This document shows, piece after piece, positions 53,096 through 58,202 of a stretch of 64,000 nucleotides of DNA. The notes under the pieces are model-generated. The model worked only from the letters and a program-made list of their open reading frames with translations, was not told where the DNA came from and ran no database searches. The stretch's first letter is position 1, and every line of letters begins with the position of its first letter. Made by a program: the position numbers and the translations under genes. Location of the stretch: the NCBI RefSeq assembly GCF_000971215.1, contig NZ_BBMA01000006.1, positions 186,001 to 250,000 of the forward strand. Direction: 5' to 3'. This DNA comes from Demequina silvatica. GTDB taxonomy: Bacteria; Actinomycetota; Actinomycetes; Actinomycetales; Demequinaceae.

Positions 53096-53452
53096 TCAGT
53101 CCGCGGTCTCCCGCGGGGTCATGAACCACTCGATGAACCGCGCCGCGCGGCCGTCCGGCGCGAACCACACCTCCCAGAGGTTGGTGTAGCTCTCGTGGCC
53201 CGGATAGTCGACCGTGCCCGTGATGATCCCGAGCTCGCTGTTCTCGATGAGGACCGCGAGGCTGTAGGTCGGGTTCGACGGCTCGGGCTCCTTCCACGCC
53301 TCGATGATCGCGTCGATGCCCTTGACCGGTTCCGGGTCGTTGGGCCGGAACCAGTACTCGGCGTCGTCGGTGAAGAGGGCGCGGATGTCCGCGTCCTCCT
53401 TGGATGCCCAGGCCTTGATGTAGCCGTCCAGCCAGTCGCTCGTGCGGGTCAT
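53096..53452 (-). CDS. SnoaL/NTF2-like protein
   Basis: The protein has 118 residues. YIKAWASKEDADIRALFTDD, AEYWFRPNDPEPVKGIDAII and LWEVWFAPDGRAARFIEWF give the cone-shaped NTF2-like fold. Members are isomerases, hydrolases or small-molecule binders. No partner gene indicates the substrate. Confidence 0.85.
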   Translation of the reverse strand: MTRTSDWLDGYIKAWASKEDADIRALFTDDAEYWFRPNDPEPVKGIDAIIEAWKEPEPSNPTYSLAVLIENSELGIITGTVDYPGHESYTNLWEVWFAPDGRAARFIEWFMTPRETAD

Positions 53453-53516: not shown

Positions 53517-53533
53517 CGTGGGCCTCGGGCGAT

Positions 53534-54772
53534 TCAGACCCGCGATGCGCGGACGACCTCCGCATACCAGCGTGCCGAAACCTTGGGGGTGCGCGCGAAG
53601 GTGGTCCGGTCGACAGAGTGCATGCCGAAGTGCGGCGCGAACCCGAACTGCCATTCGAAGTTGTCGATCAGGCTCCACGCGATGAAGCCACGGACGTCGG
53701 CGTCCGCGTCCATCGTCGTCCGGAGCGCGGCGAGGAATCGCGCGTAGTACTCGATGCGCTCATCCTCGTTGTCGGTGGTGACGCCTGTTCCGGTGATCAT
53801 GATGGGCACCTCCGCGACACGCGCCGCGAGCGGGACCGTGTGCAGGACCGCCTCGGGCGAGTAGAGGTAGCCGAGATTGGTGACGCGCCATTCCGGCGGC
53901 ATCTCCAGGGCCTGACCCTTGGATCCCACGTGCTGGGTCATGTAGGTCTGGACGCCGATGAAGTCGTCGCGGCGCGCGGCCTCAAGGTAGACGGTGGTGA
54001 GGAGCGCGGTGAGGCGCGGGGTGGGGTCTGCCTCCGGATGGTCGACGAGGTGCACGCCGGGCGATCGCGGGTCATCGTCCACATGGACGACGACATCCTG
54101 GAGCGACACCGTGAGACCGACGGGGAAATCGCCGGGCCCCTCGCGCAGAGCGCTGGCACCCGCCCGGTGCGCGGCGAGAAAGGTGTCCGTGGCGCGCTCG
54201 AGAGCCGCGACGTCCTGCTTGAAGCCCGGCGGAAAGACGCCGTTCCAGTAGCCCTGGCTCGTGACGGTGTTGGGCTCGTTGAACGTCACCGCGACATCGA
54301 TGAGCTCGCCCAGCTGTGCAGCGACGATCCCGGCGTAGCGCGCGAACAGGTCGGCCGTGTCCGCGGCCTCCCATCCACCTCGATCCACCACCCACTGCGG
54401 CGTGGTGAAGGAGTGCAGCGTCACCATGGTGCGTAGGCCCAGGTCGCGCGCGCCGCGCAGCATCGCCGCATAGGTGTCGAGTGCAGCCTGGTCGATCACG
54501 CCGTCCTGCGGCTCGATCCGGCTCCACTCGAGGGAGAACCGGTACGCATCGAGTCCCATGCCCGCGACCAGGCGCAGGTCCTCCGGCCAGCGGTTCCACG
54601 AGTCGCACGCAGCGCCGCTCGGCTCAGCGGTCCGCACGCCTGGCGGCTGTTCCCACCGCGACCAGTCGTTGCCCTCGTTGCCGCCCTCGACCTGGTGCGA
54701 CGACGTCGCGATGCCCCACAGCCAATGGGCGGGCACTGCTCCGAACGGCGCGATCGTGTGCTCGGACCGCAT
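53534..54772 (-). CDS. GH1-fold protein lacking the catalytic nucleophile
   Basis: The protein has 412 residues. The family-1 barrel is clear: FLWG-like HWLWGIATSSHQVEGG, YRFSLEWSRIEP, TFNEPN (acid/base Glu166) and the closing WSLIDNFEWQFGFAPHFG. But the nucleophile motif, normally I-T-E-N-G, reads I-T-G-T-G at 326-330, so the Glu is Gly328. Other sugar-site positions differ too: the usual His-His-Phe is HSF at 120-122, and N-Y-Y is QTY near 275-277. It may be a non-hydrolytic binder or act by another mechanism. A strong purine tract precedes the ATG. It is third in the regulator-ribB-GH1 operon. Confidence 0.85.
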   Translation of the reverse strand: MRSEHTIAPFGAVPAHWLWGIATSSHQVEGGNEGNDWSRWEQPPGVRTAEPSGAACDSWNRWPEDLRLVAGMGLDAYRFSLEWSRIEPQDGVIDQAALDTYAAMLRGARDLGLRTMVTLHSFTTPQWVVDRGGWEAADTADLFARYAGIVAAQLGELIDVAVTFNEPNTVTSQGYWNGVFPPGFKQDVAALERATDTFLAAHRAGASALREGPGDFPVGLTVSLQDVVVHVDDDPRSPGVHLVDHPEADPTPRLTALLTTVYLEAARRDDFIGVQTYMTQHVGSKGQALEMPPEWRVTNLGYLYSPEAVLHTVPLAARVAEVPIMITGTGVTTDNEDERIEYYARFLAALRTTMDADADVRGFIAWSLIDNFEWQFGFAPHFGMHSVDRTTFARTPKVSARWYAEVVRASRV

Positions 54773-54791
54773 CTCTACCACCTGCCCCTGC

Positions 54792-55397
54792 CTAGACCGC
54801 CATGTACTCGACGAGCTCGTCGATCGACACCTGCACAAACCCGTGTGCCTCGGAGAACGCACGGAGGTCGGCCCCGCGGAGCATCTCCCCGTCCTCGCCC
54901 GCGATCTCGCAGATCACGCCCGCCGGCTCCCAGCCGGCGAGCCGCGCGAGATCGACGGCGGCCTCGGTATGCCCAGGTCGCGCGACCACACCGCCCTCGG
55001 CCGCGACGAGCGGGAACAGATGGCCAGGACGTACCAGGTCGCCAGAGCCGCGCGCCGGATCGACAAGAATCGCGATCGCCTTGGCGCGATCGCTGGCGGA
55101 GATGCCCGTCGTCACGCCCTGCGCCGCATCGACCGAGACGGTGAACGCGGTCCGCAACGCCTCGGCGTTCTGCGGCACCATGGGCGGCAGGCCCAGCTCG
55201 TCCGCGCGGGCCGCGAGGATGGGGGCGCAGATGAGCCCGCGACACTCCCGCATCATGAACGCGACCCACTCCGGCGATGCGCATTGCGCGGCGATCACCA
55301 GGTCGCCTTCGTCCTCACGGTCCGGGTGGTCGGTGACCACCACGGGCAGGCCCTCCCGGATCGCGGCGATCGCCGCCTCGACTGGCCTTTGACTCAC
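54792..55397 (-). CDS. ribB: 3,4-dihydroxy-2-butanone-4-phosphate synthase
   Basis: The protein has 201 residues from GTG at 55397. The acidic metal loop is DREDEGDL (about 27-34), TTGISASDRA and RPGHLFPL follow, and RPGHTEAAVDLARLAG completes the active site, all as in active RibB. It makes the four-carbon riboflavin precursor from ribulose 5-phosphate. It is a stand-alone RibB without the usual RibA half and without other rib genes. It overlaps the regulator stop (GTGA) and sits 19 bp before the GH1-fold gene, an unusual sugar-operon setting. Confidence 0.92.
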   Translation of the reverse strand: MSQRPVEAAIAAIREGLPVVVTDHPDREDEGDLVIAAQCASPEWVAFMMRECRGLICAPILAARADELGLPPMVPQNAEALRTAFTVSVDAAQGVTTGISASDRAKAIAILVDPARGSGDLVRPGHLFPLVAAEGGVVARPGHTEAAVDLARLAGWEPAGVICEIAGEDGEMLRGADLRAFSEAHGFVQVSIDELVEYMAV

Positions 55398-56389
55398 CTG
55401 TGCTGCTCACTCTCCACTAGCGCGCGCGCGATCGCGACATCCGTGACGAGGACGTTCACCCACCCACCATGCAACGCTCCGCGGATCGCCGCGAGCTTGC
55501 GGGTGCCGCCCGCGACGCCGATACGGCGCGGGATCGAGCGTAGGACGTCCGGGCTGATGCCGATGACACGACCGTCGAACCCCGATCGCACCGGCAACCC
55601 GTCCGCATCGAAGTAGCGCAGACAGACGTCGCCGACCGCACCGACCGCGCGCAGCGATGCCTCGTCCGCCTCAGTGACCGCGTTTCCGGAGCTGCGCAGC
55701 AGCGGCGATGGCTCCGTGGTGCCGATGCCGAGCAACGCTATCGTCAGATCGGGCCAATGCGAGGCGACCGACATGACCGAGGGATCAGCCATGAGCGACT
55801 CCCGCGCAGACGAACTTCCTAGCAGGCCCGGCGCGGGAAGGAACACCGGCTCCGCACCCGTGGCCGCGGCGAACCGGGTCAGCATGCGCGTCGCCTCGAC
55901 CTGCACGCGCGACTCACCGACGCCACCCATGAGTTGCACCACGGAGGTTGCCACGACCGAGTGGGCGGGCCGCATGGCGTCGACGGCCGCGATCAATGAC
56001 GCGCTCCACGAGGAGATCCCGACCCGGTCGCCGCCGGTCATCGTGGTCTCGAGGTACGCCGCGGTCGCGCTCCCGACCGCACGCACCTCATCCTGGCCTC
56101 CGGGGTCGACGACGACCGCCTCCACCAGGCCGAAGGCCCGCTCCAACCGTCGTTCCAGCTCTGTGAACACGCCGCCCGGCTCCGACACGGTGGTGCGCAC
56201 GATCCCGGCGTCGACCGCGCGCTTGAGAAGGCGCGACACCCGCGGCTGCGATACGTGGAGGCGCGCGGCGATCTGCGCCTGGCGGAGCCCCTGCTCGTGA
56301 TACATGCGTGCGATGCGCACCATCAGCCTGGTGTGGTCGTCGACATGAGAGTAAGCATCGCCCCGCGTCGCCGCGTCAGACTCCGACAT
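55394..56389 (-). CDS. SorC/DeoR-type sugar-responsive regulator
   Basis: The 331-residue protein has a helix-turn-helix at about 33-58 (GLRQAQIAARLHVSQPRVSR) and the SorC sugar-phosphate-binding domain with VGISSWSASLIAAV, VVQLMGGVG, FLPAPGLLGSSSARESL and IALLGIGTTEP. It probably senses a phosphorylated sugar and controls its own operon with ribB and the GH1-fold gene, and perhaps the divergent secreted gene. AGGAGG precedes the ATG at 56389. Confidence 0.9.
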   Translation of the reverse strand: MSESDAATRGDAYSHVDDHTRLMVRIARMYHEQGLRQAQIAARLHVSQPRVSRLLKRAVDAGIVRTTVSEPGGVFTELERRLERAFGLVEAVVVDPGGQDEVRAVGSATAAYLETTMTGGDRVGISSWSASLIAAVDAMRPAHSVVATSVVQLMGGVGESRVQVEATRMLTRFAAATGAEPVFLPAPGLLGSSSARESLMADPSVMSVASHWPDLTIALLGIGTTEPSPLLRSSGNAVTEADEASLRAVGAVGDVCLRYFDADGLPVRSGFDGRVIGISPDVLRSIPRRIGVAGGTRKLAAIRGALHGGWVNVLVTDVAIARALVESEQHR

Positions 56390-56406
56390 GGCCCTCCTCG
56401 GCTTCA

Positions 56407-56642: not shown

Positions 56643-58202
56643 ATGGGGTTCACCCTTGCTCGACCAGCACTGCCGACACGCGCTCGATCCCTCGGCGGCG
56701 CAGCCGTCCTCGGGCTCGCCGCACTCGGGTGCGGCATCGCGGCGGCGGCGCCCGCCGTGGCCGCACCGCCCGAGGCTGCACCCATCCAGGCCGCCCAGGC
56801 CAAGGCGACCGAGGACGCCAAGCCACGCGTCATCCTTACCAACGACGGTGAGGTCGACGACATGGACAGCTTCATCCGCTACCTCTACTACGCGAATGAG
56901 TTCGACACCGAGGGCATCGTGCTGACCAGCTCCATGTACCACTGGGCCGGCAACGGCGACGACGTCGCACCGTTCCGGTGGACCGGCACCGAATGGATCT
57001 CGGACTACATCGACAAGTACGGCGAGATCTACCCGAACCTGGTCAAGCACGACGCGGACTACCCGTCGCCCGAGGAGCTCCACAGCATCTACAAGATCGG
57101 CAACATCTCCAACGTTCACGAGATGGAGGAGGTCACCGAGGGTTCGGAGCTCATCGTCGATCGCATCCTCGCCGACGAGCCGGGCCCGCTCTACGTCCTC
57201 GCCTGGGGCGGCACCAACTCTCTCGCTCGCGCGCTGAAGTCGATCGAGGAGGAGTACTCGAGCTCCCCGGAGTGGCCCGCGATGCAGGCCGAGATCTCCG
57301 AGAAGGTCGTGGTCTACAACATCCTCACGCAGGACAACACCCTCGCGAACTACATCAAGCCCGCCTGGCCCGACGTCAAGATCATCGACAACCAGGGGGC
57401 ATTCTGGGGCTTCGCGTACTTCTGGCGGAACGCGCTTCCCGCTGATCAGCTCGACACCTTGAGAGGCGACTGGCTCGGCCCGAACATCGTGAACGACCAC
57501 GGCCCCCTCGCGTACGAGTACCGCACCATGCGCGACGGCAAGCCGACGCCAGGCGACGACCAGAACAACCGCTGGCGCCCGGACCAGAACACCGGCTTCA
57601 ATGTGTACGACTTCCTCTCCGAGGGCGACTCTCCGTCGTTCATGTACCTGCTCGACTTCAACGGCCTCCGCTCGTCCGAAGACCCGACGTGGGGTGGTTG
57701 GGGCGGTCGCTTCGACACCGTCTCGTACGGCTGGAAGGACGCGGCGGACCAGAGCCCGTTCGTGAGCTCGTGCGGCGGTGGGTTCATCGATCCCTGCAAG
57801 ATGTATGCGCAGATGCGGTGGCTCGACGAACTCCAGAACGACTTCGCTGCTCGCGTGGACTGGGGCATCGCGGACGACTACTCCGAGGCCAACCACAACC
57901 CGACCGCCCGCGTGGCGCAGGGAGTCGACATCACGGCCATGCCGGGCAGCACGGTTCCGTTGCGGGCGATCGTCGGCGATGTCGACGGCGACGCCGTGGC
58001 AACGTCGTGGTGGCAGTACGAAGACGCCGACACCTACGCGGGCACGGTCGAGATCGTGCAGTCCGGGAACAACGGTGCGGTGAGGTTCAAGGTGCCGACG
58101 GACGCTGAGCCGGGTCAGACGATCCACCTGATCCTCGAGGCGACCGATGATGGCACGCCGGCCCTGACGCACTACCAGCGCGTGGTGGTCACCGTCGGTT
58201 GA
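56643..58202 (+). CDS. secreted DUF1593 nucleoside-hydrolase-like protein
   Basis: The protein has 519 residues. A signal peptide with a likely cut after AVA (about residue 40) exports it. VILTNDGEVDDMDSFIRYLYY (66-76 core) is the acidic metal-binding loop of nucleoside-hydrolase-like proteins, and WGGTNSLARALKS and the WRPDQNTGFNVYDFL stretch are typical of the Sde0182 type. The C-terminal 100 residues form an Ig-like domain (VRFKVPTDAEPGQTIHLILE). It probably cleaves a glycosidic bond in a plant or microbial saccharide. GGAG precedes the ATG. It ends in a strong terminator. Confidence 0.88.
   Translation: MGFTLARPALPTRARSLGGAAVLGLAALGCGIAAAAPAVAAPPEAAPIQAAQAKATEDAKPRVILTNDGEVDDMDSFIRYLYYANEFDTEGIVLTSSMYHWAGNGDDVAPFRWTGTEWISDYIDKYGEIYPNLVKHDADYPSPEELHSIYKIGNISNVHEMEEVTEGSELIVDRILADEPGPLYVLAWGGTNSLARALKSIEEEYSSSPEWPAMQAEISEKVVVYNILTQDNTLANYIKPAWPDVKIIDNQGAFWGFAYFWRNALPADQLDTLRGDWLGPNIVNDHGPLAYEYRTMRDGKPTPGDDQNNRWRPDQNTGFNVYDFLSEGDSPSFMYLLDFNGLRSSEDPTWGGWGGRFDTVSYGWKDAADQSPFVSSCGGGFIDPCKMYAQMRWLDELQNDFAARVDWGIADDYSEANHNPTARVAQGVDITAMPGSTVPLRAIVGDVDGDAVATSWWQYEDADTYAGTVEIVQSGNNGAVRFKVPTDAEPGQTIHLILEATDDGTPALTHYQRVVVTVG

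Follow-up and report, generated by a model that had tools for sequence, protein, structure and literature searches.

The window, the 64,000-nucleotide stretch of Demequina silvatica DNA analysed here, encodes a GH1-fold protein in which the catalytic nucleophile Glu is replaced by Gly. Taking tree, alignment and codons together, a duplicated GH1 β-glycosidase most likely lost its nucleophile before the two copies now known, one in the window and one in a second species of the genus, diverged from each other. We consider it about an even chance that the window protein is now a sugar-binding pseudoglycosidase, a reading that draws on comparison with characterised GH1 proteins.

Catalytic motifs and overall fold

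The gene and the positions that bear on its activity are as follows.

53534..54772, minus strand: GH1-fold protein without its catalytic nucleophile, 412 amino acids (from translation, Pfam, AlphaFold and PDB matches)
54410..54412, minus strand: Ser121, in both clade members, where a −1 subsite His (His123 of SGR_2426) is otherwise invariant
54269..54280, minus strand: NEPN (residues 165–168), with the acid/base Glu166 intact
54098..54100, minus strand: Gln225, equivalent to the +1 subsite Gln229 of SGR_2426; none of 13 intact sisters has Gln here, most having Pro
53867..53869, minus strand: Tyr302, in both clade members, at the position of the +1 subsite Trp (Trp291 of SGR_2426)
53783..53797, minus strand: ITGTG (residues 326–330), the nucleophile motif, with Gly328 for the catalytic Glu and Thr329 for Asn

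The translated protein begins MRSEHTIAPFG. Its membership of the GH1 family follows from a match to the Pfam Glyco_hydro_1 profile (PF00232; 246.5 bits against a cut-off of 22.6) together with the GH1 (β/α)8 fold, and the domain search of the window protein found the GH1 domain only. Against TIGR03356, the NCBI equivalog for the GH1 family β-glucosidase, it scores 255.3 bits, far below the cut-off of 478.5, a low score that, taken on this protein with no intact sister beside it, is weak by itself. The AlphaFold model has a pLDDT of 93.6, and in the PDB it is matched best by 8kap and 9u98 (Z 54.0 and 53.9; 38% identity), the top entries all being GH1 β-glycosidases with Z of 49–54.

The acid/base motif TFNEPN is complete (N165-E166-P167), so that the catalytic Glu of the NEP motif is present. 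Where active GH1 enzymes read ITENG, however, the window protein reads ITGTG (codons ATC ACC GGA ACA GGC), and neither it nor its relative has the nucleophile Glu of the (I/V)TE(N/H)G motif of retaining GH1 enzymes. Two-step retaining GH1 hydrolysis depends on this Glu, and its replacement by Gly is the change that chemists engineer to make glycosynthases. Translation confirmed the coordinates, the residue numbers, TFNEPN with Glu166 and ITGTG at 326–330 as reported in a preliminary description of this DNA.

A two-member clade within intact GH1 sisters

Other genomes yielded 27 related matches when 44 genomes of the genus were searched. The two proteins that carry Gly-Thr-Gly (GTG) form a single clade with support of 100/100 in a 31-protein maximum-likelihood tree; their stem measures 0.47 changes per site, and they lie among intact sisters from the same genus and family. 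The nucleophile Glu is present in all 29 other rows of the alignment. The Gly thus defines a clade, as the preliminary description had proposed to establish by alignment and tree, and this clade has two members.

Searches of the 44 genomes of the genus, the 47 of the family and a 396-genome sample of the order brought up no third member. When 395 genomes of the class were scanned for the DNA pattern, the window locus was the only GTG-type GH1 among the matched loci. The order and class sets are samples and not full surveys. Matches in a plasmid collection, known by identity and not by motif, were at most about 40% identical among those listed, and a genome-contig search for related loci gave one distant relative only.

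The second member, L004, comes from another genome of the genus (G041). It is 58% identical to the window protein and reads SGTG, encoded by TCC GGG ACC GGC; its Gly and Thr codons are thus synonymous with the GGA ACA of the window. Nearly all intact sisters have GAG AAC at these two positions. A single base change each leads from GAG to GGG and from AAC to ACC, and a further synonymous step from GGG ACC to GGA ACA. The Gly-Thr pair therefore probably arose once and was then kept while its codons drifted. As this pattern is the one expected of a maintained Gly-Thr, a base-calling error is unlikely, and a sequencing or frameshift artefact is ruled out by an independent genome having the same residues in other codons. 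G041 additionally holds an intact paralogue with ENG (L024), so that the Gly form stands beside the family as a paralogue and has not displaced it.

For the two proteins, dN (0.36) over dS (1.07) comes to 0.34, and three intact pairs span 0.15–0.34; these values are rough, given strong codon bias and high dS. Since the ratio is near that of the intact pairs, purifying selection appears to continue. At 124 positions invariant in the intact sisters, the two proteins keep 103 and 101. For the intact sister that diverges most, the figure is 86% of the positions at which the others do not vary. The model of the G041 protein has a pLDDT above 90 over most of residues 10–420. The two members thus share a missing catalytic Glu that has become fixed in a lineage under purifying selection, one of the marks of a pseudoglycosidase.

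Some irregularities were noted among the relatives. The G041 gene (L032 7535–8947, plus strand) continues about 55 residues beyond the usual GH1 end into a convergent GH3 gene; this tail is mostly predicted to be disordered, with pLDDT below 50 from residue 435, and looks as if the stop codon had been lost or the sequence misassembled. An intact-motif sister in G037 (L014) is split over two frames near residue 306, by a frameshift or a sequencing error, and another in G043 (L013) has TEIG for TENG, with Ile replacing the Asn that follows the nucleophile.

Changes in the active-site pocket

Pocket positions were mapped by alignment to SGR_2426, a GH1 β-glucosidase of Streptomyces griseus, and its sophorose complex (PMC12369401). 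Sixteen changes are common to the two GTG proteins and absent from the 13 intact sisters. Those at ligand-contact positions are E328G (Glu318), H121S (His123, −1 subsite), P225Q (Gln229, +1 subsite) and W302Y (Trp291, +1 subsite). Shared derived changes thus occupy 4 of 12 contact positions and 12 of 399 others (Fisher p = 0.0006, with contact positions taken from PMC12369401; the value is somewhat generous, as Gly328, the starting point of the analysis, is counted among the four). N329T, adjoining the nucleophile position, is also shared.

Among the 31 rows, E328G and H121S are confined to the GTG pair. The preliminary description had read HSF where HHF is usual, and HSF indeed stands at residues 120–122. 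It had also read QTY for NYY; QTY is present at 275–277, but Q275 is common to nearly all intact relatives and is no sign of lost function. Both members retain the remainder of the −1 sugar site, namely Q27, N165, E166, Y277, W366, E373 and W374, as well as R78; Y277 and R78 are invariant residues. We take R78 and Y277 to be the residues that contact the nucleophile in GH1 enzymes. L004 carries further changes, from N371 to Gly and from H120 to Ala.

None of the 16 shared changes introduces a new acidic residue; the only candidate, D336E, falls where the sisters are already acidic. E236R is the only shared gain of positive charge and lies in a different region of the sequence from the pocket. 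No alignment shift was found that places a Glu at the nucleophile motif. Another conserved Glu at that position, the observation against which the preliminary description had staked its claim, is thus missing from the alignment.

Comparison with known GH1 proteins

The closest structural comparator is SGR_2426, known as the wild type (8kap) and as an E318G–sophorose complex (9u98); the E318G mutant has drastically decreased activity, and its crystal binds sophorose at 500 mM (PMC12369401). The window protein matches it in fold (Z 54, 38% identity) and length class, and has equivalents of all its −1 residues Gln29, Asn167, Glu168, Tyr267, residue 363 and Trp364, while the +1 residue Gln229 corresponds to Q225. 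Native SGR_2426, in contrast, has Glu318, His123 and Trp291 where the window protein has Gly, Ser and Tyr. The natural window protein thus resembles the laboratory E318G nucleophile mutant of SGR_2426. Residue 363 of SGR_2426 is given as Gln in the text of PMC12369401 and is Glu by count in the sequence.

Engineered GH1 glycosynthases such as Abg E358G and TnBgl1A E349G carry the same Glu-to-Gly change at the nucleophile (PMC6151457), and azide, formate or acetate can restore activity to nucleophile mutants (PMC6151457, PMC8950772, PMC12018205). These enzymes are laboratory-made, whereas the window protein is natural and additionally has H121S, W302Y, P225Q and N329T. The KL2 domain of β-Klotho keeps its acid/base Glu693 and has lost the other catalytic Glu (Ala889), and its pocket binds a Ser-Pro-Ser peptide where a sugar would otherwise sit (PMC10628560). 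The window protein has the same combination of a kept acid/base and a lost second Glu; Klotho, however, is an animal, extracellular co-receptor with tandem domains, and the window protein is bacterial and single-domain. Plant myrosinases and rice Os4bglu14/Os9bglu33 also miss one catalytic Glu, but in the reverse pattern, with the acid/base lost (Gln) and the nucleophile kept (PMC1781453), so that the window protein does not belong to this type.

GH1 pseudoenzymes (Klotho) and plant GH1 proteins without the acid/base are already known, and the GTG clade is found in two species only. The literature searched yielded no natural bacterial GH1 protein without its nucleophile, which is not proof of absence.

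Operon and genome context

On the minus strand of the window, the gene order is a SorC/DeoR-type regulator, a ribB-type gene, GH1 and a SnoaL-like gene.

55394..56401, minus strand: SorC/DeoR-type sugar-responsive regulator, its stop codon lying in a 4 nt overlap with the start of ribB
54792..55397, minus strand: second RibB copy (3,4-dihydroxy-2-butanone-4-phosphate synthase), immediately upstream of GH1 with a 19 nt gap
53096..53452, minus strand: SnoaL-like protein; in G019 directly after ribB, with no GH1 between

Because the regulator and ribB overlap by 4 nt and only 19 nt separate ribB from GH1, the three genes are probably co-transcribed. A gene for a Sde182-type nucleoside-hydrolase-like protein with a C-terminal domain (56643–58202, plus strand) adjoins this regulator operon.

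A ribB match is present in all genomes of the genus; genes closely related to the window copy (65–78% identity) occur in five other genomes, in four of which the regulator adjoins them (L072, L074, L075 and L076 loci compared). Near this conserved ribB–regulator pair, several genomes encode transketolase halves, an FGGY-type sugar kinase or a sugar isomerase-like protein, and genes of these kinds lie close to the pair in G019, G026 and the window's own contig. The second, stand-alone ribB may thus serve sugar catabolism and not riboflavin synthesis.

GH1 adjoins ribB in none of the four larger neighbourhoods of other genomes. At the corresponding site of G019 (L101 7855–7870 against window 53517–54804) there is no GH1, and so the gene is an extra one at the window site, gained here or lost there. 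The SnoaL-side flank of that site is about 92% identical to the window, whereas the regulator–ribB segment is only 76% identical, which suggests that this segment was swapped as one unit. The G041 copy follows a tRNA-Arg gene and lies beside a GH3 gene and near uronate-catabolism genes. Since the two GH1 contexts have nothing in common, they give only a weak hint towards sugar catabolism. Two further frames considered as neighbours of the G041 copy (L032 5852–6505 and 6717–7538) have no family match, the second overlaps a tRNA-Arg gene, and they are probably not genes.

Function of the window protein

According to our preferred reading, Glu was lost to Gly together with the Asn-to-Thr, His-to-Ser and +1 site changes, and the protein would since have been kept folded. 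With the nucleophile gone, the two-step retaining route of GH1 hydrolysis would be closed, a loss of activity that we infer from the engineered counterpart of the window protein, SGR_2426 E318G. Contacts with Q27, N165, E373 and W374 would hold a sugar or small glycoside in the old pocket, its glycosidic oxygen at E166, and the protein would act as a binding protein with a logic comparable to that of β-Klotho KL2. Both sugar binding and such a biological role are extrapolated from these parallels. The pentose-phosphate-type gene set beside the operon suggests a ligand from sugar catabolism. A binder is favoured because the −1 His is also lost, the distribution is narrow and the literature searched holds no GH1 phosphorylase, but disfavoured because the acid/base Glu with its NEP motif, R78 and Y277 are kept, which a pure binder need not do. 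Its affinity may be weak, given that E318G took sophorose only at 500 mM soaking. The existence of two members only, their differing neighbourhoods and a sequence that indicates neither ligand nor partner also count against it.

The kept E166, R78 and Y277 lean instead towards catalysis without a nucleophile, by a natural glycosynthase-like enzyme or an inverting phosphorylase, which we hold to be possible though somewhat doubtful. Loss of Glu328 and His121 would leave a cavity, bordered by R78, Y277, T329 and S121, with room for an anion (phosphate, acetate, another carboxylate or a group of the substrate) that attacks C1 or leaves an α-glycosyl donor, E166 serving as acid or base, with phosphorolysis or glycosyl transfer as the outcome. 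Retaining glycosidases whose nucleophile is changed to Gly, Ala or Ser are glycosynthases (PMC6151457, PMC8950772, PMC12018205), and one point mutation made a GH84 hydrolase a phosphorylase (PMC8950772). The pair, however, gained no positive charge at the pocket, the genomic context gives no pointer to a sugar 1-phosphate, L004 has lost N371 and H120 as well, and the searched literature's silence on GH1 phosphorylases weighs here too. That a naturally evolved nucleophile-free GH1 enzyme breaks or makes β-glycosides with phosphate, another anion or an α-glycosyl donor is, as a specific proposal, unlikely.

We regard it as rather improbable that the two genes are functionless, decaying paralogues that survive by chance in two species. 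Such decay would fit a clade of two in 47 family genomes, the loss of some sister-invariant positions by both members, the overrunning, mostly disordered tail of the G041 copy and the frame-shifted G037 sister, by which loss is seen to occur in this family. It fits poorly with full-length frames without stops, a dN/dS near that of intact genes, an identical Gly-Thr kept through synonymous codon change over a long separation, changes concentrated in the pocket while other contacts are kept, and the tight placing of the window gene in its operon. An ordinary glycosidase that uses another acidic residue as nucleophile might be expected from the largely intact remainder of the active site, yet with no non-acidic residue turned acidic among the shared changes, and no shifted alignment supplying a Glu, it is very improbable.

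The preliminary description had offered a pseudoenzyme, a sugar sensor or a different mechanism. The first and last of these gain from the two-member Gly clade, the lack of a new shared Asp or Glu and the near inactivity of E318G. The sensor specifically finds no support here, as the GH1 domain stands alone and the regulator/ribB operon occurs without GH1 in other genomes.

Evolution has here fixed the glycosynthase-type Glu-to-Gly change in a lineage with matching pocket changes, on a modest scale, with evidence from two species. A nucleophile-free enzyme, should the protein prove to be one, would count as a glycosynthase of natural origin or as the first phosphorylase known to us in GH1. Whether a Klotho-like bacterial binder or a nucleophile-free catalyst, it would bear on how glycosidases are repurposed.
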